Below are positions 8,825 to 37,074 of a stretch of DNA of 64,000 bases, one piece after another. Origin of the DNA: Bacteroidota bacterium (GTDB taxonomy: Bacteria > Bacteroidota > Bacteroidia > 2-12-FULL-35-15); contig JAOQAG010000008.1 in the NCBI GenBank assembly GCA_025963715.1, positions 273,907-337,906 of the forward strand, read 5' to 3'. Below the pieces are notes generated by a model, which ran no database searches, was not told the DNA's origin, and saw nothing but the letters and a program-made list of their open reading frames with translations. The position numbers were made by a program, and so were the translations under genes. The number at the start of each line of letters is the position of its first letter. Position 1 is the stretch's first letter.

Positions 8825-9679
8825 ATGAGCGCGTTAGCTGATTTTAAAATAAATTTTATTGAAGCAATTGACGGTACTAAAATCGGTTACCGGGAAATTG
8901 GTAGCGGCCCCGGTGTGATCCTTGTGCATGGAGGGCTTCAGTCATCGTTAAATTTTACAATGCTTGCAAAATTATTGTCAGTTGATTTTACGGTTTATAT
9001 CCCCGACAGGCGCGGGCGTGGGTTAAGCGGCCCATACAATCCTAATGATACTATTTTAACGGAAGCCAGGGACATGCTTGCATTGGCCCGGCACACAAAT
9101 ACGGAATATATTTTTGGGCTGAGTTCCGGCGCCATTCTTACATTGCAGGCTGCAGTGCTGGAACCTGTATTTAAAAAAATTGCGTTGTACGAGCCACCTA
9201 TCCCGTTAAATGAGCATCCATTTAAAAAAATGGGGATCGATTATGAAGCTGCTATGAGTAAAGGAAATTTTGGAAAAGCATTTATTACTATTGTTAAAGG
9301 CACCGGCGATACTTCCTTTTTTGGCATGTTACCGGGTTTTATAACTGTTCCGCTGGTGAATATGCTCATGAAAGCGCAATTAAAAAACCCAAAGGAAGAT
9401 GAATTGCCTTTGCAGGAGCTGGTGTCTACGTTTCATTACGACCGCATGATCGTAAAAGATTCGTTACCACTTTTGGAGAAAGCAAAAAATATAAGTGCAG
9501 AGGTATTGCTGCTTGGCGGTGCAAAAAGTCAAGCATATTTTATACCGGTGCTTGAACAATTGCAAAGGAAGATCCCGAATGCCAGGCGCATGGCGTTTGA
9601 GAAACTCGGGCATTTGGGTGCCGACAATAGCGGCACGCCGGAAAAGGTAGCGAATGAATTACAAAAGTTTTTTAACTAA
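8825..9679 (+). CDS. Alpha/beta-hydrolase
   Basis: 284 residues with the full alpha/beta-hydrolase layout. The oxyanion strand is VILVHGGLQSS (about 30-40). PDRRGRGLSG (about 60) corresponds to the usual D.RG.G.S motif. The nucleophile elbow is GLSSGA (Ser about 101), and a late His lies in KLGHLG (about 262). No signal peptide, so cytosolic. The cap region carries no diagnostic motif. Substrates could be esters, lactones or haloalkanes; the reaction cannot be fixed. A weak promoter-like TTATTTTGC lies about 30 bp upstream. Confidence 0.9.
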   Translation: MSALADFKINFIEAIDGTKIGYREIGSGPGVILVHGGLQSSLNFTMLAKLLSVDFTVYIPDRRGRGLSGPYNPNDTILTEARDMLALARHTNTEYIFGLSSGAILTLQAAVLEPVFKKIALYEPPIPLNEHPFKKMGIDYEAAMSKGNFGKAFITIVKGTGDTSFFGMLPGFITVPLVNMLMKAQLKNPKEDELPLQELVSTFHYDRMIVKDSLPLLEKAKNISAEVLLLGGAKSQAYFIPVLEQLQRKIPNARRMAFEKLGHLGADNSGTPEKVANELQKFFN

Positions 9680-9683
9680 AAGA

Positions 9684-9730
9684 AGGTATGTAAACCTGTT
9701 TAACAGATCATGCATACCTTCATTTTATTT
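9684..9730. terminator. Hairpin terminator between convergent genes
   Basis: GAAGGTATG pairs with CATACCTTC and is followed on the plus strand by ATTTTATTTTTT. It lies between the hydrolase (plus) and azoreductase (minus) stops and could serve both directions. Confidence 0.7.
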
Positions 9731-9747
9731 TTTGCAGCAACTCATTT

Positions 9748-10377
9748 TTAAACTTGCGCCGTCATTGCTTCGTACTCATAATTATTAATGCTGTCTATCG
9801 CTTTTTGTACCGCAATGTCTTTAAATTCGGGCATCATCATTCCTTCGATCCTGAAAGTGGTGATATCCGTCAGGCCTATAAATCCCAATATATATCTTAA
9901 ATACGGCTCTGCAAAATCATAGTTTTTCAGCGGCCCATCAGAAAAAACACCACCGGATGAAATTGCCAGGAAAACTTTTTTATCCGTAAATAAACCTTTC
10001 GGCACGCCATCTTTATAGCTGAATGTAAAACCCGCTCTCACAACATGATCGATCCATGCTTTTAAGGTAGATGGAATATTAAAATTGTATATCGGTACAC
10101 CAATTACAATAATGTCGGCCTCCATTAATTCTTTAACGGATTGTTCGGAATGGCTCACCGCTTCTTTTTGCTCAGCAGTCCGTGCTTCATCCGGAGTATA
10201 AAAAGAGCCTAAATGCGTTTCCTCCAAATGCGGAAAAGGGCTTTTGGTCAAATCGTGCGTATGCACATTCTCAACCCGGTAAACCGATGATAATTTATCA
10301 ATTAGCGCATCTGCCAATTTAATGCTGAAAGAGTCTTTGCCTTTCACGCTTGAAATGATATGAAGAATTTTTTTCAT
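9748..10377 (-). CDS. azoR: FMN-dependent NADH azoreductase
   Basis: 209 residues of the flavodoxin-fold azoreductase/quinone reductase family. The FMN-phosphate loop is at the N-terminus (IISSVKGKDSFS, about 7-18). The flavin-ring segments are VPIYNFNIPSTLKAWIDHVV (about 95-114) and AISSGGVFSDG (about 140-150). It reduces quinones, azo and nitro compounds with NADH in the cytosol as a homodimer. It is divergent from an HxlR regulator with tandem palindromic repeats between them, as is common for inducible quinone/azo reductases. A -7 box (TAATTTTG on the minus strand, 10421-10428) lies about 45 bp upstream. Confidence 0.92.
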   Translation of the reverse strand: MKKILHIISSVKGKDSFSIKLADALIDKLSSVYRVENVHTHDLTKSPFPHLEETHLGSFYTPDEARTAEQKEAVSHSEQSVKELMEADIIVIGVPIYNFNIPSTLKAWIDHVVRAGFTFSYKDGVPKGLFTDKKVFLAISSGGVFSDGPLKNYDFAEPYLRYILGFIGLTDITTFRIEGMMMPEFKDIAVQKAIDSINNYEYEAMTAQV

Positions 10378-10457
10378 TTTGCTTTTGTTTTTTTTCTGTA
10401 TGTATTACTGATTAACGGAGCAAAATTAGGGCACGATCACTATATAATTGATATGGA

Positions 10458-10511
10458 TTTCCTTTTAGAAAGTAGTTTCCTTTTGGGAAGTGATTTCCTT
10501 TTGGAAACGAT
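10458..10511. promoter_or_regulatory. Three tandem 18-bp repeats, likely HxlR operators
   Basis: TTTCCTTTTAGAAAGTAG, TTTCCTTTTGGGAAGTGA and TTTCCTTTTGGAAACGAT follow one another without gaps. Each is an imperfect palindrome, TTTCC-TTTT-GGAAA. They sit between the azoreductase promoter and the -7 box TACCTTTG (10525-10532) of the HxlR gene. Confidence 0.7.
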
Positions 10512-10574
10512 CTTAAAATTGTTATACCTTTGCTTCATCTATTTATTATCCGGATCAGTAACAACGACTACCAC

Positions 10575-10934
10575 ATGAAAAAGAAAATAATTGAAAAACG
10601 CGGTGAATGCACAACGGAGCTATTGGCTATAAAAGATGCGATGGAGCTGCTAAGTGGAAAATGGAAAGTTCACATAATTGCAACGCTTACTTACAAAGGA
10701 GCTGTCCGGTTTATGGATCTGCAGAGACATGTGGAAGGGATTGGCGCCAAAATGTTATCAAAAGAACTGCAGGACCTGGAAGTTAATCTGCTGATCAAAA
10801 GAACGGTATTGGATACCAAGCCCGTTACTGTTGAATATGAATTAACGCCGCATGGCAAAACATTAGAAAAAATAATTGGCGAAATACGTATTTGGGGAAG
10901 GTCTCACCGGAAAAAAATAATTGAACGGAAATAA
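10575..10934 (+). CDS. HxlR-family transcriptional regulator
   Basis: The start is taken at ATG 10575 (MKKKIIEKRGECTTELLAIK), 40 bp after a strong -7 box; the longer frame from 10530 would begin inside the promoter. About 119 residues with the HxlR hallmarks: DAMELLSGKWKVHIIATLTY (helix 1-2), RFMDLQRHVEGIGAKMLSKE (recognition region) and the wing LDTKPVTVEYELTPHGKTL. HxlR proteins are dimeric winged-helix sensors, often of quinones, aldehydes or redox state. It is divergent from azoR and probably controls it. Confidence 0.92.
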   Translation: MKKKIIEKRGECTTELLAIKDAMELLSGKWKVHIIATLTYKGAVRFMDLQRHVEGIGAKMLSKELQDLEVNLLIKRTVLDTKPVTVEYELTPHGKTLEKIIGEIRIWGRSHRKKIIERK

Positions 10935-10956
10935 TGTGTATGTATTGATGCAAATA

Positions 10957-11151
10957 GTTATGTTGTAGAACAATATTGCTATGGAAACAAAAATACTCTC
11001 CAGAACTGTCATCCCGGGCCTGATCCGGGATCTGCCAATTAAAAACCGGGATCAACATTCTGCAGACATTTATGAGATCCCGGGTCAAGCCCGGGATGAC
11101 AGCTTCGAAATGAAATATCAGGTAAAATAAACATTTTCCTACAACATAACC
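10957..11151. mobile_element. Non-autonomous MITE-like element, copy 1
   Basis: About 195 bp with outer ends GTTATGTTGTAG...CCTACAACATAACC. An inner hairpin is built from GTCATCCCGGGCCTGATCCG and its complement. It is an inverted-orientation sister of the element at 22292-22487, and related to 28351-28550. It has no coding capacity; the frame 10825-11166 (minus) merely reads the repeat. Confidence 0.8.
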
Positions 11152-11171
11152 ATACAAATTAAACATGCAAA

Positions 11172-11197
11172 AAGCCGCAAAACAATTTCGCGGCTTC
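11172..11197 (-). terminator. Rho-independent terminator of the MDR gene
   Basis: On the minus strand AAGCCGCGAAA...TTTGCGGCTTTTT: a GC-rich 7-bp stem followed by a T-run, 23 bp downstream of the oxidoreductase stop. Confidence 0.8.
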
Positions 11198-11219
11198 TTC
11201 TTCTCCAGGTTCTCTGTGT

Positions 11220-12140
11220 TTAATTTACTTCCAGTACCACTTTTCCGTTGATCCCACCGGCAGCAACCAAATCCTGTGCTTTTGCTGCATCTTCTAATTT
11301 AAGTGTTTTTGCTACGGAAGCTTTTATCTTGCCTTGTTCAAACAATTGCAAACCATATTCGAGTTTTTTATGCGATGGAGCGGAAGAAATAAATTGTGCG
11401 GTCACTTCAAATTTTTGGGCCAGTTCGGCTGAAGGCGGCATTACAATGCTGATCAGTTTTCCGCCTTTTTTTAATACTTCAAATGATTTGCTTTGTGTTT
11501 CTCCGCCTACTGTATCGGCTACAAAATCAGCCTCTTTTACCAGTTTGGTAAAATCCTGTGTTTTATAATCGATCACTTCATCAGCACCAAACCCTTTTGC
11601 AAGATCCAGTCCTGCGCCGGATGCGGTAGCGATCACGTATGCACCCAAAGCTTTCGCGATTTGCACCATCACGCTGCCAACAGCGCCTGCCGCACCGTGG
11701 ATCACTACTTTTTGCCCTGCTTTTAATTCTCCTTTTTCTATCAGCACGCTGTATGCTGTACCAAACGGAACGGCTAAAGCAACGGCTTCGTTGAAAGAAA
11801 TATTTTCAGGTTTGAACGTGATGTTATTTTCTTTCATCGCCATGTATTCAGCGTAAGCTCCCCCGAAAGTAGTCCCGAAAACAGCATCTCCGATCTTGAT
11901 CCGCGTAACAGCGCTCCCAACAGCTTCCACTATTCCTGAAGCATCTGAGCCCGGAATAAAAGGCAATTCCACCGGCATTATTTTTTGCATGTTACCCGAA
12001 CGAATCTTTAGATCCAGCGGGTTTACCGTTGTTGCTTTTACTTTTACCAAAACCTCATCTTCTTTTATAAGGGGCTTATCCACCTGTTTCAATTCTAATA
12101 CATCTGATTTTCCAAATGTTGTATATTGTATTGCTTTCAT
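11220..12140 (-). CDS. NADP-dependent MDR oxidoreductase (quinone oxidoreductase-like)
   Basis: 306 residues of the zinc-free medium-chain dehydrogenase family. The N-terminal catalytic part has PGSDASGIVEAVGSAVTRIK (about 65-84). The Rossmann domain begins VVIHGAAGAVGSVMVQIAKA (about 145-164). No structural-zinc Cys cluster and no catalytic-zinc Cys at the usual place, as in quinone oxidoreductases and enoyl reductases. It should reduce quinones or reactive enones with NADPH in the cytosol. A candidate operator motif lies 23-55 bp upstream. Confidence 0.92.
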   Translation of the reverse strand: MKAIQYTTFGKSDVLELKQVDKPLIKEDEVLVKVKATTVNPLDLKIRSGNMQKIMPVELPFIPGSDASGIVEAVGSAVTRIKIGDAVFGTTFGGAYAEYMAMKENNITFKPENISFNEAVALAVPFGTAYSVLIEKGELKAGQKVVIHGAAGAVGSVMVQIAKALGAYVIATASGAGLDLAKGFGADEVIDYKTQDFTKLVKEADFVADTVGGETQSKSFEVLKKGGKLISIVMPPSAELAQKFEVTAQFISSAPSHKKLEYGLQLFEQGKIKASVAKTLKLEDAAKAQDLVAAGGINGKVVLEVN

Positions 12141-12162
12141 CGTTCTTTGTTTTTTTAATTAA

Positions 12163-12195
12163 TTTTTAATGAGTATCGGGAACTTTGCACCAATT
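12163..12195 (-). promoter_or_regulatory. Candidate operator motif copy A
   Basis: Reading toward the oxidoreductase gene: TTGGTGCAAAGTTCCCGATA then CTCATTAAAA. It shares the core GTnCAAAnTTCCnGATAnTCATT with copies at 14627, 15823, 5879 and 16230. It is immediately upstream of the oxidoreductase gene and also forms one edge of a larger repeat (12163-12465). Confidence 0.5.
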
Positions 12196-12465
12196 AAAAG
12201 ATATTGGTATCTATTTATGCTTTAACTTTTTGAAGGCAAAAAGTTACAAAAACCTTTTCTGGCCTGTAAGGTAATTTTTCCTTACGCTGGCGCTGCAGGA
12301 AAACCGCGGTTAATTTCGCGGATACGGCTTGTCGCTTCGTAGCTTTAATTTTTCTCCCGCTCATTCCCGCTATTACTGCACAGGCCGAAATCGTCTGCAG
12401 AATAAGTATTCTATTATTTTTACTAATTGGCAGCAGAATGTTTTAAAAAGTCTATACCAAACGGA
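12163..12465. repeat. Dispersed non-coding repeat, long version
   Basis: The 338-bp gap between two oxidoreductase genes is filled by a repeat-like sequence. Its left edge (TGAGTATCGGGAACTTTGCA, then CTTTTTGAAGGC) and right edge (GTCTGCAGAATAAGTATTCT, then GCAGCAGAATGTTTT) recur in the same order in a shorter form at 14627-14755. The middle 150 bp here is absent from the short copy. No ORF is supported. Confidence 0.65.
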
Positions 12466-22291: not shown

Positions 22292-22487
22292 GGTTATGTT
22301 GTAGGAAAATGTTTATTTTACCTGATATTTCATTTCGAAGGTGTCATCCCGGGCCTGACCCGGGATCTCATAAATGTTTGCAGAATGTTGATCCCGGTTT
22401 TTAATTGGCAGATCCCGGGTCAGGCCCGGGATGACAGATCAGGAAAGTATTTCTGTTTCCATAGCGACATTTTCCTACAACTTAACC
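22292..22487. mobile_element. Non-autonomous MITE-like element, copy 2
   Basis: 196 bp with ends GGTTATGTTGTAGGAAAATG and CATTTTCCTACAACTTAACC, which are inverted repeats. The inner hairpin is GTCATCCCGGGCCTGACCCG and complement. It lies in opposite orientation to copy 1 (10957-11151). Confidence 0.85.
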
Positions 22488-30707: not shown

Positions 30708-31001
30708 AATACGGATAACGAATTAATACGGATTTACGAATCTGTGTTTGTGTTTAAATTTTAATTTATATCTCTAATTTTTTATGCTTGCAGAATCAAT
30801 TCCCCTCTTGACCTTAATTACGCAAGACAGATTTTTGGGTTAATTTTGATGGAAACCAGCACTTTTTCGACTGTTAAAATAAAATTTTTTTTGGAAGGTT
30901 GAATAAAAAGGGCCTGGATTATTAAATAATCCAGGCCCAATGAAAAAAAATTATCAATATTTCAATTTTTTATAAGTATTTATTAATAAAACAAAATAGG
31001 T

Positions 31002-31110
31002 TTTGTATTAAAAACACAATTCTTTATCTTTGTGATAGAATTTTAAGGTTGGCTAAGTAACTTCGGCAGCAATTGTAGCTGTCCAACACGCTTAAGCCAA
31101 CCTTTTACTT
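31002..31110 (+). ncRNA. Candidate small RNA with own promoter and terminator hairpin
   Basis: TTTG at 31002-31005 and TATCTTTG at 31025-31032 are a -33/-7 pair with a 19-bp spacer, as in Bacteroidota promoters. The predicted transcript has an outer stem AAGGTTGGCT (31045-31054)/AGCCAACCTT (31095-31104), an inner hairpin CAGC-AATTGTA-GCTG, and ends TTTTACTTTT. No ORF is present. It lies antisense to and just downstream of the DUF6934 cassette. Confidence 0.5.
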
Positions 31111-31144
31111 TTAAGAGATAGATGTGCTTATGCAGCAATGTTTT

Positions 31145-31294
31145 TTAGATTTTTTTAAGTAATTCATCAGGCCATTTAGCCTTAGACAATTCTTCTGCAA
31201 TAGCTTTTACTCGTGGTTCCATTGATTTTCTAATCATCATTGCAAGCTTTAATAGCTCAGGGTCATTGACCATAAATATTTTATTTCCGTTCAT
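31145..31294 (-). CDS. Small protein, third gene of DUF6934 cassette (49 aa)
   Basis: 49 residues from ATG 31294 to TAA 31145. The body reads VNDPELLKLAMMIRKSMEPR then VKAIAEELSKAKWPDELLKK. It is amphipathic and helical, with a pattern (D-PELL-L...I..AMEPRV..IAEEL) that I recall, without certainty, beside DUF6934 genes elsewhere. It starts 6 bp after the preceding small gene. It would be missed by a 60-residue cutoff. No function is known; a helical partner or antidote-like role is only a guess. Confidence 0.65.
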   Translation of the reverse strand: MNGNKIFMVNDPELLKLAMMIRKSMEPRVKAIAEELSKAKWPDELLKKI

Positions 31295-31300
31295 TTTTTA

Positions 31301-31447
31301 TTATGCTGCTGAGGATTTCAGCATTAAATTATTAATTATTGCCATTTTATTCTTAAACAGTACTGTATTAGAATATTTATCCAATTCAGGATTAATAATA
31401 ATATTTTTTGCAATTAATTTTTGTTTTGTTTTTTTATTCTTTTTCAT
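31301..31447 (-). CDS. Small protein, second gene of DUF6934 cassette (48 aa)
   Basis: 48 residues from ATG 31447 to TAA 31301. Lys-rich start MKKNKKTKQKLIAKNIIINP, then ELDKYSNTVLFKNKMAIINN. Its start codon lies inside the last codons of the DUF6934 gene (14-bp overlap), and its end is 6 bp from the next small gene. This tight stacking supports it as real and translationally coupled. The family is unknown. Confidence 0.6.
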   Translation of the reverse strand: MKKNKKTKQKLIAKNIIINPELDKYSNTVLFKNKMAIINNLMLKSSAA

Positions 31448-31928
31448 CGCCATTTTTTTTTATTAAAAAGGCTAAGAAGTTTACATTTCCACTAAAAGGA
31501 ACAAATCTTCCTGCCTCGGTATATCCATAAATATTAAAATATTCTGAAATATCAGAGAAATATTTAAAAATCATTTGTCTATAAATTCTTGTCCTAGCAT
31601 CATTACTTCCTGTTGCAATGACATAGCTATCAGGATTTTCATTTGTAAAATTAATTGTAGTATTTGCCACAGTAGCTAAAACTTTATTCATATCCCCATT
31701 TTTACTTTGAATTTCATCATCACAACTTCCATCTTCCTTTAAATCACCAAATCCTAAATTGTAAAGCTGACAGTTTTCAGTTTTTCCAGTTTCCCAATAT
31801 AAAGTTGTCACTCCAGTTACTAATGAGTATTGTATCGTTTTTTCTATTACCCCTTTTTTGCCAATGCTCGTAAAATAATACTCACGTGCTAATGTTGAGG
31901 CTGTTGTAATATATTGTTCAAATTTCAT
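31434..31928 (-). CDS. DUF6934-like protein
   Basis: 164 residues. The opening YITTASTLAREYYFTSIGKK and the later GSNDARTRIYRQMIFKYFSD with FLIKKNGDE fit the Bacteroidota family I know as DUF6934 (name from memory). No signal peptide, membrane helix or catalytic motif; the fold is alpha/beta. It is first gene of a three-gene stack with two tiny proteins. It is cargo between the left end of the IS1380 unit and the transposase. AT-rich. Function unknown; the tight stacking with tiny partners resembles modules such as toxin-antitoxin pairs, but nothing here proves it. Confidence 0.8.
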   Translation of the reverse strand: MKFEQYITTASTLAREYYFTSIGKKGVIEKTIQYSLVTGVTTLYWETGKTENCQLYNLGFGDLKEDGSCDDEIQSKNGDMNKVLATVANTTINFTNENPDSYVIATGSNDARTRIYRQMIFKYFSDISEYFNIYGYTEAGRFVPFSGNVNFLAFLIKKNGDEKE

Positions 31929-32007
31929 TATTATTATAAATTTTACAAATAATAATGCTAAATGGTTATAATGTAAATACTAATCTTAAAAAGTCTCAAA
32001 CATTAAA

Positions 32008-33348
32008 CTACATTAACCTAACATAGTCGATTTTGGAGTCATAGAAGACATACCTATCCTCCTCATAGGAAAATGCTCCTCTCAAAAATTCGGATAAAAA
32101 TTTTGGCAATCGGAAAGTTATTTTTAATTCTTTTATTTTTTTCGAAAAAAATTTCAGCAAGGCGAGATATAAGTTATTTGTAATCCCAGATATTATAAGG
32201 TGAACCAGGTTTTCATTAAGTCGGCTAAATGGCAATATAGCCCATCCGAAATTATTTTTAAGTGCATCAAAGTTTTTCTCTATTGCTCCCCGCTGATGAT
32301 ATTCTCTCATAATTGATTGTTCAGTGGCCTTTTCATCATTTGTAATGACAAACTTATAGTAGTATCCATTTTTCAATCTCCACTTTGAACTTTGTTCTAA
32401 TTCCCTATCTTTTTTCTTAACCTGAATTGCAATCATTCTATAAGTATTCTTTTTATCATTTGAAAAGGTAAAAGGAACAGAACACATCATAGCATTCCAG
32501 CGATGAATGGTTGTATTAAGCACAACCTTTTTAGGATTCTGGCAAGTCATAATCATGCGATGAGTTCTTTCAGACCAATCAGCACCAACAACAAATTTTA
32601 TCTTATTGTCATTCAAATATTTCAAAATCTCCTTGGTGAATCCTGCTCCATCAATTCGTACTCTTCCCACTTTAATATTATGTTTCTTTAAGAGAGCAAG
32701 GCATCGCTTAAGGCAATCCAGCTGCATAAAGAGAGAATTAGCGTTTCCACTTCTCATGCTGACATAAACAGGGATTTGATTAATCATACAAACCATAGGT
32801 GTAAAGCCTAACCCGCTTTTATAACATGGCCTGGCTTCGTGTACCTTGGATGGAATTATAGTAGCATCCATATCCAATTCATAGTAGATATTTTCCTTAA
32901 GCAGATTAAGTTTTTTAGATAATTGGATAGAGAGGTCATTTAATTTGTCATTTTCGTTTTTGAAATATTGTTTTTCGCCACGGTTTGGATTTTTGGGATT
33001 TATGCTTTTTATTTCTTCGTTTGGAGTTGCAAATTTTTTAAATACCCTTCCAACTGTATCATGCGAGCATAGTTTGAGGTTTTGAATCAAGGCAAGGTCT
33101 TTCTTTGCATCTTCAATTTTTATAAGTCTGGTTCCATGGGACATTGAAGTAACCATCCAACCAACCATGACATCAGAATAGCTGTATCTAGCTTGAGCAG
33201 GGCGTTCACCAAGAGCTGCCTGGATAGTCTCAGGAATGCGCAGGGCATTAATCCTCTTGAGAACAGGAGCCACTCCAGCGAAGCTAGATACAACTTTATT
33301 TGACCTGACGGCTTTCACGATTGCTTGGATGATTTGTATTAATTTCAA
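32008..33348 (-). CDS. IS1380-family DDE transposase
   Basis: 446 residues. The DDE_Tnp_1 catalytic residues of the IS1380 family are visible: first Asp in YYELDMDATIIP (about 159-161), second Asp in VGRVRIDGAGFTKEI (Asp about 233), and Glu in RGAIEKNFDALKNNFGW (about 365). Length is close to the family's usual 430-450 and no disruption is seen, so it may be active. No family-type ends are found immediately around it; the only matching ends are the outer repeats at 30812 and 36526, so it appears to be the transposase of the whole unit. Confidence 0.93.
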   Translation of the reverse strand: MKLIQIIQAIVKAVRSNKVVSSFAGVAPVLKRINALRIPETIQAALGERPAQARYSYSDVMVGWMVTSMSHGTRLIKIEDAKKDLALIQNLKLCSHDTVGRVFKKFATPNEEIKSINPKNPNRGEKQYFKNENDKLNDLSIQLSKKLNLLKENIYYELDMDATIIPSKVHEARPCYKSGLGFTPMVCMINQIPVYVSMRSGNANSLFMQLDCLKRCLALLKKHNIKVGRVRIDGAGFTKEILKYLNDNKIKFVVGADWSERTHRMIMTCQNPKKVVLNTTIHRWNAMMCSVPFTFSNDKKNTYRMIAIQVKKKDRELEQSSKWRLKNGYYYKFVITNDEKATEQSIMREYHQRGAIEKNFDALKNNFGWAILPFSRLNENLVHLIISGITNNLYLALLKFFSKKIKELKITFRLPKFLSEFLRGAFSYEEDRYVFYDSKIDYVRLM

Positions 33349-33399
33349 GTGTTATAGGTATTGAAAAGGCCTTAAAAGAAGGCTGTTAATAACTTTTAT

Positions 33400-33840
33400 T
33401 TAGAACATCTGAACCACTGCATTTTCTCTTCCTCTCACAAGCTCAATGATATTATAAGCTATATCAGCTCCATCAGAATCTGGTGTTAACAGAATGCCTC
33501 CATACTGCTCTATGTCCTGAAGTCCATCCAGGTCAAAGACATGGCAAAATTCTTTCAAGGTCATATCAAAGAAATCAATGACTCCTGCTATTGTTCCTTC
33601 TTGTGGTTTCATCCTAAGAAGAATTGCATCACCAGAGAATTCATCATAACCCCATTCATCAAATATCATTGGCAGTTCTTCATAGCACCAGTTATGAGTT
33701 TTCACTATGTAGCTGGTGTGAAGTTTTTTCTCAAGAGCAGTGAGTGTGGCCATTCTGTATATTCCATGTTCAGCATGGTCTTTAATTGTTGCAAGGTGGT
33801 CCGCATAGTGAATCAATCTTTCATTGTAAATTGTTTTCAT
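33400..33840 (-). CDS. Uncharacterised protein in IS1380 unit (146 aa)
   Basis: 146 residues, acidic, cytosolic by appearance. It opens MKTIYNERLIHYADHLATIK and contains GIYRMATLTALEKKLHTSYI (about 27-46), then an acidic centre. I recognise no family. It lies 51 bp upstream of the transposase start on the same strand, so could be co-transcribed, though it is not a usual IS1380 component. The long leader upstream (33841-34339) contains several hairpins. Confidence 0.75.
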   Translation of the reverse strand: MKTIYNERLIHYADHLATIKDHAEHGIYRMATLTALEKKLHTSYIVKTHNWCYEELPMIFDEWGYDEFSGDAILLRMKPQEGTIAGVIDFFDMTLKEFCHVFDLDGLQDIEQYGGILLTPDSDGADIAYNIIELVRGRENAVVQMF

Positions 33841-34339
33841 GTGAATTGTTTTTTAGGATTTATAATTGATAAATAAATCCAAACGAGGGGGAAAGAAAAA
33901 AGAACCCGCATTCTTTCTTGCTTCCTCAAGAATTATCCATGCACTGATTTAGCATGGCACTCTAAAGGGACATGAATAGTCCATGAAACCACTTATAATG
34001 GTTCCTCGTTCAGATTGTTTTTTTATACTTTGTTGATTAAGCTAGCTGAAGGATATCAGGTGTTTGTAAGCTGTAGACCATGGGCACGTAAAGGGTTTAA
34101 GTTAGACATGGTTCATCTCATTAATGAGATGAACATTTGTTCTCCTTGTACTTTGCCATATGTTGATTGAGTGTCCTCAGCGCCAGTGCCAGGCCGTGAG
34201 GGTAATTTTGCGGGAAATATTGACAAATAAAACTGCGTCAACCTTTTCTTTGTACGTAATAAAAGAAAAAAAGTTTCAGGTTTTTGAAAATATTATTTGA
34301 AACGCTTTGTTTTCGTGGTCTGTTTTTTTATTTTTTTAA
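33841..34339. other. Structured non-coding stretch of about 500 bp
   Basis: No convincing ORF on either strand. It contains successive hairpins, CATGC-ACTGATTTA-GCATG, GGAC-ATGAATA-GTCC and GAAACCA-CTTATAA-TGGTTCC (about 33947-34012), and then a perfect 24-bp palindrome at 34111-34134. It separates the divergent 146-residue gene and the 43-residue gene, so it may hold the promoters and operators of both or a structured RNA. Confidence 0.45.
34111..34134. promoter_or_regulatory. Perfect 24-bp palindrome
   Basis: GTTCATCTCATT followed directly by its exact complement AATGAGATGAAC, with no spacer. This suits a dimeric DNA-binding protein; the XRE regulator encoded in the same unit (36198) is one candidate. 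Confidence 0.6.
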
Positions 34340-34471
34340 ATGAAAGAAGATATAAAAAGATGGTTTGTGCACCTTTGGATAGATATATATTATTCAATGC
34401 CTGTTTCATATATAAAAATTAAATGGAGGCGTTTTAAAAGAAAATTTTATACACTAGAAGATGAAGATTAA
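34340..34471 (+). CDS. Small basic protein (43 aa)
   Basis: 43 residues from ATG 34340 to TAA 34471, beginning MKEDIKRWFVHLWIDIYYSM and ending with a basic segment KWRRFKRKFYTLEDED. It is rich in Trp, Tyr and Lys/Arg and could associate with membrane or nucleic acid. The start of the next gene (34461) lies inside its last codons, so the pair is probably translationally coupled. No family recognised. Confidence 0.5.
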   Translation: MKEDIKRWFVHLWIDIYYSMPVSYIKIKWRRFKRKFYTLEDED

Positions 34472-34679
34472 AGATTTTAAAAATTGGAAAGTAAAGACAG
34501 AATTATCAGCATATCGCATTGCTGCAAATGAAAAAATAAATCAATTAATAGCTGAAGCTCAATTGCTAAAGAATATTCCTTTAGCAATTGAACTTATTGG
34601 CATAGGTACAATGATTCTATTATCTAATTCAAAAACTGAAGTTGATGAACTATTGAATAAAAAATTGAAATTTAAGTAA
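34461..34679 (+). CDS. Uncharacterised small protein (72 aa)
   Basis: 72 residues. MKIKDFKNWKVKTELSAYRI begins an N-terminal helix, followed by IAEAQLLKNIPLAIELIGIG (about 30-49), which is mildly hydrophobic. It overlaps the preceding 43-residue gene by 11 bp. Its stop overlaps the end of a convergent small gene (34672-34845) by 8 bp. Such a tail-to-tail overlap of two small genes is unusual. No family recognised. Confidence 0.6.
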   Translation: MKIKDFKNWKVKTELSAYRIAANEKINQLIAEAQLLKNIPLAIELIGIGTMILLSNSKTEVDELLNKKLKFK

Positions 34680-34845
34680 ACAGTTCATCAATGGTATCTT
34701 CAAGGCTGCGCTGATGTGTTTCCAAGTATTCAATTTCAGTTTTTCCTTCGTTTTTTAATTTAGCAATGGCTATGCTGTTCTTATAAGCAAGATTAGCCAG
34801 TGTTTGCAATACTGTTTTAATTTTTTGTTCGTCTTTAGGAGTCAT
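34672..34845 (-). CDS. Uncharacterised small protein (57 aa)
   Basis: 57 residues from ATG 34845 to TAA 34672: MTPKDEQKIKTVLQTLANLA then KNEGKTEIEYLETHQRSLED. It reads as two amphipathic helices with heptad-like spacing, possibly a small coiled coil. It is convergent with the 72-residue gene. No family recognised. Confidence 0.5.
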   Translation of the reverse strand: MTPKDEQKIKTVLQTLANLAYKNSIAIAKLKNEGKTEIEYLETHQRSLEDTIDELFT

Positions 34846-34891
34846 AATTTTTGTTTTTTGTTATAGCTAATTTATAACAAAAAATCGTTTT

Positions 34892-35251
34892 TCAAAATCC
34901 TAATTGAGTAAATACATATTCTTCACATACCATTTCAATAAACTCCTCTGGAGTTATCTTCTTCCTCATTCTGGCGCATTCCGAATATACATCAGTTATA
35001 TACTCCCACTCAGCTGTTCTAATCGAAACAGATTGATATGTGAGTTTTTTTTCTTCAAAAAAGAATAGGTCCCGCCTATCTGTTCCATAGTGAAAACAAA
35101 TTTCAATTAATACAATACAACCATCTCCCGTATATCGCAATCTCCCCACCTCATAACCAATCGTGGGAACCCTGCCACCCTCCAACAATGCGTGATTCCC
35201 ACTCCTGGCTATGATATCAATTGGTACAAATAAATCTCTTGGCTTGCTCAT
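34892..35251 (-). CDS. Uncharacterised protein (119 aa)
   Basis: 119 residues, cytosolic by appearance. It contains GYEVGRLRYTGDGCIVLIEI (about 32-51) and a helical acidic C-terminus with ITPEEFIEMVCEEYVFTQLG. No family recognised. It starts directly after the stop of the upstream lipoprotein gene (adjacent, no gap), so the three minus-strand genes 36095-34892 form an operon within the IS1380 unit. Confidence 0.75.
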   Translation of the reverse strand: MSKPRDLFVPIDIIARSGNHALLEGGRVPTIGYEVGRLRYTGDGCIVLIEICFHYGTDRRDLFFFEEKKLTYQSVSIRTAEWEYITDVYSECARMRKKITPEEFIEMVCEEYVFTQLGF

Positions 35252-35527
35252 TTAATAGCTCCAGTCACAATTAAATTTTCCTGTAGCTTCCAATTCATGC
35301 TGTTGCTGCTCGATGTATTCCTTTGTGTAAGTAATACTCGCTCCATCATGTGTCATTGCTGATTGACCAATGGTATACTTATATTCAGCTCGGTCTGAAT
35401 CTGAGCATGATACTTGGTTTGCAACATCTTTGTCATGTGAGTATTGTTTCTCTGTACATGTACAGGTTTTTTTTTGGCAAGAGGCCATCAAGGCACTCAT
35501 CGTCACAAATAAGATGATTTTTTTCAT
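35252..35527 (-). CDS. Small Cys-rich lipoprotein
   Basis: 91 residues. Signal peptide with lipobox ALMASC (Cys 17), then KKTCTCTEKQYSHDKDVANQ and more Cys (VSCSDSDR; FNCDW), giving paired Cys that could form disulfides in the periplasm or at the surface. It lies 4 bp after the 187-residue lipoprotein gene. No family recognised. Confidence 0.75.
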   Translation of the reverse strand: MKKIILFVTMSALMASCQKKTCTCTEKQYSHDKDVANQVSCSDSDRAEYKYTIGQSAMTHDGASITYTKEYIEQQQHELEATGKFNCDWSY

Positions 35528-35531
35528 GTGT

Positions 35532-36095
35532 TTATAGGGTTGTTAAGGTTTTAAATGAATGTTCAGCTGATAAATAATTCCTCGCATATACTGCATTATC
35601 CGTAACCTCTCCATAAATGCCATATGGACCAATGAGGAAAGTCCCAAGCCTGGCTCTATGTCCAGTGTGGTCCATGTTCCAGATTTCCAGTGAGGTCGTG
35701 TAGTTCCTGTTGATTCGGACATGCTCTATTATATTGGGCATGCAGTACGTCAGCACATTATTAAAGGAAAAATCTGGGATTGAATCCATAGGATTCATAT
35801 TCAGCGAATACGTGGAGTCAGCGTAGGTAAGTGCAAAGCTATCCAGCACTGTTCCATTGCACCTGGTAATTCCGTAAGATGATTGGAAGGAATTGGTGTT
35901 CTGATAATCGAACACATGCTGTCCGCCAGCACTCAAATTACCAAGGTCAATGCTGTCGTAATCCAAGAGATAGATATCAAGGTTAACAGAATCAATACCA
36001 TTAAGTGTTTGAGGGGCATTAATGTAAACGGTTTCCTTTTTACAAGAGAGCAAAAGGAGGATTGATAAAAGCGATATATAAGTTAAGGGTTTCAA
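35532..36095 (-). CDS. Uncharacterised lipoprotein (187 aa)
   Basis: 187 residues. Short signal peptide with lipobox LLLLSC (Cys 18), then KKETVYINAPQTLNGIDSVN. It is rich in Asp, Asn, Ser and Thr with a beta pattern. It opens the three-gene minus-strand operon inside the IS1380 unit; the genes downstream follow with 4 and 0 bp gaps. It may be a surface-exposed cargo protein. Function unknown. Confidence 0.75.
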   Translation of the reverse strand: MKPLTYISLLSILLLLSCKKETVYINAPQTLNGIDSVNLDIYLLDYDSIDLGNLSAGGQHVFDYQNTNSFQSSYGITRCNGTVLDSFALTYADSTYSLNMNPMDSIPDFSFNNVLTYCMPNIIEHVRINRNYTTSLEIWNMDHTGHRARLGTFLIGPYGIYGEVTDNAVYARNYLSAEHSFKTLTTL

Positions 36096-36197
36096 TGCTA
36101 ATGCAATTATAAAACAAATTTCAATATGTTATCCAATCGGATAGCACATTTTTTAACCAAAATCCCGCTCTTTGAGTAAAATAGGTAAAGACGGAAC

Positions 36198-36437
36198 ATG
36201 GATGAGAGGGAAAAGAAAGAACGTTTAAAACTGCAAAAACGCTTTGGTGAACATCTGAAGAGGTTGAGGGAGGCTATGGGGTTAACTGCGGCTGAACTCG
36301 CCAGAAGGTGCTTCATGGAAAGGTCAAATATTGCCAGGCTGGAAGCAGGACGCTCAAATCCCTCACTTTTTGTCCTGAAAAAGCTGGCTGTCGGCCTTGA
36401 AATTGAATTGGAAGAGTTAATGAAAGACTTTAAATAG
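36198..36437 (+). CDS. XRE-family transcriptional regulator
   Basis: 79 residues, a single Cro/CI-type helix-turn-helix: LKRLREAMGLTAAELARRCF (about 18-37) then MERSNIARLEAGRSNPSLFV (about 38-57), closing LEIELEELMKDF. It is the last gene before the right end of the IS1380 unit, divergent from the lipoprotein operon, and the obvious candidate for controlling the cargo. A hairpin terminator follows immediately. Confidence 0.93.
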   Translation: MDEREKKERLKLQKRFGEHLKRLREAMGLTAAELARRCFMERSNIARLEAGRSNPSLFVLKKLAVGLEIELEELMKDFK

Positions 36438-36468
36438 AAAAGGACGCTAAATTTAGCGTCCTTTGACA
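36438..36468 (+). terminator. Terminator after XRE gene
   Basis: AAAGGACGCTAAATTTAGCGTCCTTT: GGACGCTAAA pairs with TTTAGCGTCC, then TTTGAC. A good stem with a short T-run. Confidence 0.75.
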
Positions 36469-36610
36469 TGTTAATAAATATTTTTACCCTTATTTATCCC
36501 TACAGTATAGACTTGCGTAATTGGGGTTGAGAGGGGTTAGGGGTGTGTTTTTTAATTTTCAAACAAATCAAATTCTTCATTTATTAACACTAAATTTTAT
36601 CATGTTTGTA

Positions 36611-37074
36611 GAATCAATTCCCCTCTTGAGAGGGGCCAGGGGTGTGTTTCTCAAATTCTTCAATATAAATTTCAATCGCTCTTAACACCATCAACATTTT
36701 TTGTCTAATATCATTTTCTGTAAACCGCAGAATTGTTAAATCCTGGTTTTGTAAATTCTTTTCTCTTTCAAGATCTTTAAAATAAACCGCTTCATCGTTA
36801 TGGTATTTACCGTCAATTTCGATTACAAGGTTTAATTCCGCACAGTAAAAATCAACGATATATTCTAATAAAGGTTTTTGCCGGTGAAAATCATAACAAA
36901 AAAACTGTTTGCCTTTTATTTTTTTCCACAATAGTACTTCTCCAAGCGTGCTGTTATTTCTTAAATCCCTTGCAAGATTTTTAAGATTTGGATTGTAAGG
37001 GATTATTTTTCTTGTCATTTTTTTTTCGAAATGCTGTGTGTAACACACCCCTGGCCCCTCTCAAGAGGGGAACT
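36611..37074. repeat. Inverted repeat pair framing a DUF559 gene
   Basis: The left arm about 36618-36648 (ATTCCCCTCTTGAGAGGGGC then CAGGGGTGTGTT) is inverse to about 37042-37073 (AACACACCCCTGGCCCCTCT then CAAGAGGGGAA). Each arm contains its own small palindrome CCCCTCTTGAGAGGGG. A third copy was split by the IS1380 unit (30796-30811 plus 36527-36545). Confidence 0.85.
36614..37018 (-). CDS. DUF559-domain protein (nuclease-like)
   Basis: About 134 residues from ATG 37018 (MTRKIIPYNPNLKNLARDLR); the longer start lies in the flanking repeat. It carries the DUF559 core: NNSTLGEVLLWKKIKGKQF, PLLEYIVDFYCAELNLVIEI then DGKYH, and LRFTENDI. The D...E.DG pattern is that of Vsr/restriction-endonuclease-like folds, so a DNA-cleaving role is plausible but unproven. 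The C-terminus KHTPGPSQEGN is encoded by the flanking inverted repeat, which thus supplies its stop. Confidence 0.88.
   Translation of the reverse strand: MTRKIIPYNPNLKNLARDLRNNSTLGEVLLWKKIKGKQFFCYDFHRQKPLLEYIVDFYCAELNLVIEIDGKYHNDEAVYFKDLEREKNLQNQDLTILRFTENDIRQKMLMVLRAIEIYIEEFEKHTPGPSQEGN

Follow-up and report, generated by a model that had tools for sequence, protein, structure and literature searches.

What does the IS1380-type transposase encoded in this genome of a Bacteroidota bacterium (GTDB 2-12-FULL-35-15; assembly GCA_025963715.1) move: its own gene only, or the whole 5.7-kb segment of unrelated genes in which that gene lies? The locus is part of a 64,000-nucleotide stretch of contig JAOQAG010000008.1 (positions 273,907 to 337,906), called the window here. 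A reading of its letters without database searches (the sequence-only reading) had proposed that a unit with inverted ends and a TTGA duplication occupies window positions 30812-36526. The unit was recovered at these positions, and in our judgement it is very probably an autonomous transposon that carries cargo and belongs to a divergent IS1380-like clade of insertion sequences (IS), inserted with a 4-bp TTGA duplication in the loop of a palindrome like the repetitive extragenic palindromic (REP) sequences.

The 5.7-kb unit is bounded by the outer inverted ends CCTTAATTACGCAAGAC (left) and CCCCAATTACGCAAGTC (right), and TTGA directly abuts the outer side of both. Their pattern, CCNNAATTACGCAAGNC, matches with zero mismatches in the window only at 30812-30828 (+) and 36510-36526 (-), and across the 4.9-Mb genome the two unit ends are again the only matches. 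An unbiased scan around the transposase for inverted ends starting with CC and flanked by a duplication of at least 4 bp placed the 30812/36526 pair at the top (14/18 positions matching) and found no end pair closer to the transposase gene (32008-33348), so that, as had been claimed, the outer ends bracket both transposase and cargo. The comparable statistic at 309 other places in the window was at most 12/17, one unrelated palindromic-repeat pair excepted, and 14 matching positions were reached in 1 of 300 shuffles. Taken alone, the end sequences suggest a unit; the call is decisive because the target site and the relatives add to them. A second pair in the window, with 17/17 matching bases, was rejected as unit ends and is another palindromic repeat. 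The second palindromic repeat CCGGGTCAGGCCCGGGATGACAG is found at window positions 22415 and 28423 in inverted orientation, with matching flanks.

When the unit and one TTGA are removed, the flanks rejoin to give CAATTCCCCTCTTGAGAGGGGTTAGGGGTGTG. The pattern CAATTCCCCTC-TTGA-GAGGGG occurs in 118 copies in the genome (up to 3 mismatches; reversed control, 0), and the filled site is the consensus of this repeat with TTGA doubled. The insertion point is therefore exactly the loop of a REP-like palindrome, and the loop has been duplicated. An intact sister copy, also part of the earlier proposal, has its core at 36620-36635. Empty loci, to which the sequence-only reading had looked for confirmation, were found in the genus: the asparaginase and tatD genes that flank the site occur together in 24 other genomes, 15-1234 bp apart, without the unit. 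In several of these relatives the position is taken by a DUF559 gene with an intact copy of the same palindrome on either side, and in others by nothing. Absence of the unit is clear at the level of the locus; orthology at the level of the site is approximate, because the interrupted repeat is one of two tandem copies.

The DUF559 (endonuclease-like) gene is also found in the window, at 36614-37070, between inverted palindrome copies at 36620-36635 and 37055-37070. Within the genus, some genomes have this block of gene and repeats at the asparaginase-tatD locus and others lack it, and it is possibly a DUF559-linked REP-like mobile module; a literature search on DUF559 palindromes found nothing. 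The 118 copies of CAATTCCCCTCTTGAGAGGGG in the genome (G000 among our genome labels) often form inverted pairs about 100 bp apart, for example C1:118019/118122 and C19:31761/31866, which resemble REPIN (REP doublets forming hairpins) and BIME (bacterial interspersed mosaic element) units.

The transposase open reading frame (ORF) is intact. Alignment places its catalytic residues at D161, D233 and E357, with the signature Y-x2-R-x3-E-x6-K, and the protein matches Pfam DDE_Tnp_1_4 above the cut-off (6.7e-20) and the NCBIfam IS1380 model NF033539 over residues 14-416 (E 1.2e-48), in agreement with the family assignment made from the letters. No other relative of the window transposase was found in the same genome, and a single-protein scan of genome and viral contig collections returned no close relative. 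A class-level search at E 1e-90, a threshold that was too strict, returned only the window copy.

Scans for ends around transposase homologues in the genus and the class (28-38% identity) uncovered nine further elements of 3.1-12.8 kb, each with similar ends around a related transposase and eight of the nine with exact duplications. The earlier expectation of near-identical ends around homologous transposases in related genomes was thus realised, at spacings of 3-13 kb. The elements comprise one of 8.2 kb in G001 (ends CCTTAATTACGCAAGTC and CCTTAACTACGCAAGTC, duplication CCATCTGG), two in G014 (3.1 kb, AAACTGTT; 8.5 kb, ATTAG), and one each in G005 (12.8 kb, TGTTA), G100 (3.8 kb, TTATT), Fluviicola (12.0 kb, CTTAAAAAAG), G177 (12.4 kb, duplication unreadable, flanks palindromic), G013 (11.4 kb, TTCCA) and G213 (12.6 kb, CAAACTG). 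The cargo differs in every element found. Few gene families are common to them: a gene next to the transposase that we call family A, XRE regulators and, in two elements, DUF2130 and Panacea genes; an AbiV/HEPN gene occurs in one element only. The cargo is therefore not fixed, contrary to the sequence-only reading. In the transposase tree, the window protein falls in a clade of 11 (support 100/100) apart from compact IS1380s, which form their own group (94/93), and G005, the 8.5-kb element of G014, G100 and one locus with uncertain ends make up a second cargo group (95/92). As the root was placed arbitrarily, the tree does not show that cargo carriage arose only once.

Similar ends were also seen outside complete elements. 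Genome G276 has a transposase-free 1.7-kb unit (L106 933-2611) with such ends and a 7-bp duplication (TTTTCGA) in a terminator-like hairpin; it contains a secreted-protein gene and fragments, and movement in trans therefore appears possible. The secreted protein, of 330 aa, ends in a type IX secretion tail. Its gene is present again after a second left end (L107 from 1050), and both left ends begin beside GGCTGTC, as though the hairpins there were of one class. For several solo ends that are exact or near-exact (G010, G179, G117, G286, G305 and G213:C55), no partner was found in the available DNA, often because the contig stops. The exact clade end CCTTAATTACGCAAGTC in G179 (L101, G179:C1 9918-18978) adjoins a methylase / GHKL ATPase / Z1-domain gene cluster that resembles a restriction-like system; its partner end was not found. 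At G100:C51 (L062 104-142), only 5 bp separate two element ends in inverted orientation, and TTATT is common to both, as if one element had inserted directly beside another.

A preference for hairpin loops as targets, absent from the sequence-only reading, emerged from the insertion sites. Empty sites were rebuilt by script at eight sites, and stems centred on the duplication were scored. Low P values were obtained for the window (0.010), G001 (0.0002; the stem there is long and terminator-like), Fluviicola (0.002), G177 (0.011), G013 (0.005) and the G276 unit (0.0005); the second cargo clade was borderline (0.02 and 0.05). By this comparison, palindromes are over-represented at the insertion sites of the clade. 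The G013 copy likewise interrupts the loop of a REP-like repeat that is abundant in its own genome (about 77 copies), with a transposase only 37% identical to that of the window and with different cargo; there is one copy of each of these two elements, in the loops of the 77- and 118-copy repeats. The duplicated target measures 4-5 bp in the window and G013 copies, against 7-10 bp in other clade members, and is symmetrical about the loop wherever a hairpin is present.

The reading as an autonomous transposon brings these results together. The DDE transposase would act on the two outer inverted repeats, so that everything between them would move as one segment: it would pair both ends, excise or copy the whole unit and integrate it at palindromic intergenic sites, in this case the loop of one of the roughly 118 REP-like repeats of the host. 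Sequence comparison shows the two ends with their duplication, the loci that lack the unit, the association of such ends with related transposases in further genomes and the excess of palindromes at insertion sites; we infer that the element is still active. Several observations weigh against this account. The genome has one copy and no transposition was observed; the same cargo did not turn up in a second element; the transposase scores 165.8 bits, under the NCBIfam IS1380 cut-off of 180 bits (two relatives' transposases score 155 and 126), and for this reason we label it IS1380-like, of a divergent clade. The duplications in the clade have several apparent lengths (4, 5, 7, 8, 8, 10), uncommon behaviour for a DDE transposase, and that of G177 cannot be read. 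The palindrome test rests on eight sites, some of which prompted the idea, and two of them, the 3.1-kb element of G014 (P 0.61) and G213 (P 0.26), have no clear target palindrome.

Could the unit instead be a product of one-ended mobilisation, in which a compact IS1380 once took some downstream sequence, by chance, for its second end and captured neighbouring DNA? Members of the family are known for such events (PMC9330008), and near the tip of its right end the window unit differs from the clade consensus at two bases. The transposase is internal, however, with cargo on both sides and no nearby internal sequence that pairs as an IS end; the outer ends match each other at 14/17 positions as well as the family consensus, and the arrangement with two good ends recurs in the nine other elements. 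We consider one-ended capture highly improbable, and the likeness to ISEcp1-style mobilisation drawn in the sequence-only reading was not upheld. It is likewise very unlikely that the ends delimit a non-autonomous cargo unit moved in trans, with the transposase inside it a passenger or an unrelated older insertion. The transposase-free unit of G276 suggests that movement in trans does occur, but related transposases lie inside units with such ends in several genera, and the window genome has neither another relative of the transposase nor remnant ends around it. A chance pairing of short similar sequences, with no mobile unit at all, might be entertained when 0.5 matches to the end pattern are expected per window at 2 mismatches; set against the combination of zero-mismatch ends, a duplication, a rejoined 118-copy repeat, an IS1380-type end consensus and empty loci, it is hardly credible.

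A separate question is whether palindromic targets reflect choice by the transposase or tolerance of insertions in intergenic terminators and repeats. Hairpins are commoner between genes, and per-site P values do rise against intergenic positions. The excess nevertheless persists: without the window copy, the combined P is 4.7e-9 against all positions and 1.9e-7 against intergenic positions only, and still 2.9e-6 against the latter when the G276 unit is left out as well. Compact IS1380 control insertions had no palindrome excess (P 0.53), though only three were testable, and tolerance does not explain why the duplication is centred on the loop. Tolerance is thus an unlikely explanation, and we infer that the transposase itself chooses hairpin-forming or palindromic sites. 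More speculatively, and with considerable doubt on our part, the clade might recognise extruded hairpins or cruciforms rather than sequence and insert symmetrically about the loop, the geometry of the hairpin setting a duplication of 4-10 bp, and the elements' own terminators might replace those they split, giving near-neutral sites for large, exchangeable cargo.

Terminator-like hairpins are found near both ends of the window unit (13-bp stem and T-tail left, 11-bp stem and T-tail right). In the wider set, 14 of 26 ends (16 from paired units, 10 solo) have a subterminal hairpin at or above the 99th percentile of a background that was drawn from all positions, not from intergenic ones, mostly 25-100 bp inside the end and mostly of A-tract/stem/T-tract form. 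Such terminators would make insertions cheap by replacing a split terminator and blocking outside transcription into the element. A role in insulation is putative, because of the all-position background, because outward-facing cargo genes would need terminators anyway, and because hairpins are not specific to the clade: the compact IS1380s IS613 and ISBf12 have one inside one end. A literature search on terminators as IS targets found nothing.

Compact Bacteroidota IS1380s (IS612B, IS942, IS613, IS615 and a Persicobacter element), re-delimited by the same scan, measure 1.55-1.6 kb, have ends such as CCTTAATTCCGCAAC and CCTAAAATCCGCAAG, and left clean 5-bp duplications in three insertions. The ends of the window unit are variants of these, and the expectation of ends starting with CC and a duplication of 4-5 bp agreed with the comparison to IS612B, IS942, IS613 and IS615 and with the 4 bp of TTGA. 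The two kinds share the end type CCTTAATTCCGCAAC / CCTAAAATCCGCAAG, a homologous DDE transposase and a short duplication (5 bp in compact elements where readable). They differ in that compact elements are about 1.6 kb with a single gene, their transposases have 27-28% identity to that of the window and group separately in the tree, and the few copies tested had no hairpin-centred targets; the window unit, at 5.7 kb with cargo and no inner ends, is not such an element. In ISEcp1/ISPme1 modules, the IS is complete, with both of its ends, but a misrecognised sequence past one of them serves as an end, and DNA on one side is mobilised (PMC9330008). An IS1380 transposase moving adjacent genes unrelated to transposition is common to both situations, but the length of the cargo varies per event in those modules, whereas the window unit has two conserved outer ends and an internal transposase. 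Nor is the structure that of a composite transposon, as the transposase is the only one of its kind in the unit and the genome. Transporter IS (tIS) are IS with passenger genes (PMC3129680), and the window unit, with IS-type ends, a transposase and passenger genes unrelated to transposition, falls within that definition, although cargo-bearing units here reach 12.8 kb. REP-targeting IS (IS1397, ISKpn1, IS621, ISPpu9/10 and ISRm22) belong to the IS3, IS110, IS4, IS256 and IS5 families (PMC1525189); they too insert into abundant extragenic palindromes, but none is an IS1380, and the window clade also uses terminator-like hairpins. The parts have precedents, in passenger-gene IS and REP-targeting IS. 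In the literature searched, which did not cover subscription papers or ISfinder, nothing was found on IS1380 elements with two ends and cargo or on hairpins as targets of IS1380, and the combination appears not to have been described in this family. The element is best described as a cargo-bearing (tIS-like) IS1380 variant with a hairpin-loop target preference.

The features of the unit and its flanks are listed in Table 1.

Table 1. Features of the cargo-bearing unit and its insertion site (window positions)
Feature	Position	Strand	Basis or remark
Interrupted host palindromic repeat, left arm CCCCTC	30802..30807	.	
Target site duplication TTGA, left copy	30808..30811	.	TTGA is the loop of host repeat CCCCTC-TTGA-GAGGGG
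Left terminal inverted repeat CCTTAATTACGCAAGAC	30812..30828	+	Matches IS1380-type ends of relatives and of IS612B/IS942/IS613
Left subterminal terminator-like hairpin, 13-bp stem, T-tail	30910..30938	.	
Cargo: DUF6934 protein, 164 aa	31434..31928	-	Pfam 1.1e-43
IS1380-like DDE transposase; start TTG (446 aa) or GTG at 33318 (436 aa)	32008..33348	-	Pfam, NCBIfam, alignment, clade tree
Family-A gene, 146 aa, directly upstream of transposase, same strand	33400..33840	-	
Cargo: small ORF, 72 aa	34461..34679	+	
Cargo: small ORF, 57 aa	34672..34845	-	Homologue in G177 element
Cargo: ORF, 119 aa	34892..35251	-	No family
Cargo: small lipoprotein-like ORF, 91 aa	35252..35527	-	
Cargo: secreted/lipoprotein-like ORF, 187 aa	35532..36095	-	
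Cargo: XRE-type helix-turn-helix regulator, 79 aa	36198..36437	+	Pfam HTH_31 8.4e-14
Right subterminal terminator-like hairpin, 11-bp stem, T-tail	36439..36464	.	
Right terminal inverted repeat CCCCAATTACGCAAGTC	36510..36526	-	
Target site duplication TTGA, right copy	36527..36530	.	
Interrupted host palindromic repeat, right arm GAGGGG	36531..36536	.	
Intact sister copy of host repeat, CCCCTCTTGAGAGGGG	36620..36635	.	

Passenger genes are present as the sequence-only reading had stated, with its count of ten or so revised to about eight or nine ORFs, several of them small. A PADLOC search of ten cargo proteins gave no convincing defence match, and an Rfam search of the unit gave no match. The family-A gene lies directly upstream of the transposase at five loci including the window, and nearby at a sixth, and the two may be co-regulated. 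Its predicted fold, which is confident (predicted local distance difference test score, pLDDT, 88.8), has no significant match in PDB or in viral models. A role for family A as a dedicated accessory of transposition is made less likely by copies that adjoin other mobile-element genes in the same genome, and the gene is therefore better regarded as a mobile-element-associated gene. These copies lie at L129 (G000:C21) 9331-12444 and L130 (G000:C23) 9471-9875; neighbours identified by eye are a tyrosine integrase-like ORF with DUF2130-like and XRE-like genes, and an IS1595-type transposase-like ORF. The leader and first codons of the transposase gene (window 33318-33410) are near-identical to those of the 3.1-kb G014 element (L035 8520-8610), although the proteins are only about 34% identical, which suggests recombination or a conserved control element.

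These results indicate that relatives of IS1380 can also be genuine cargo transposons with two ends and a length of 3-13 kb, beyond their part as one-ended mobilisers of neighbouring genes. The signatures of end and target allow such islands to be found and bounded in Bacteroidota genomes, together with cargo that is otherwise hard to place, such as Panacea antitoxin-like genes, an AbiV/HEPN gene and secreted proteins. The hairpin-loop landing sites raise a testable question, whether a DDE transposase may choose its target by the structure of the DNA.

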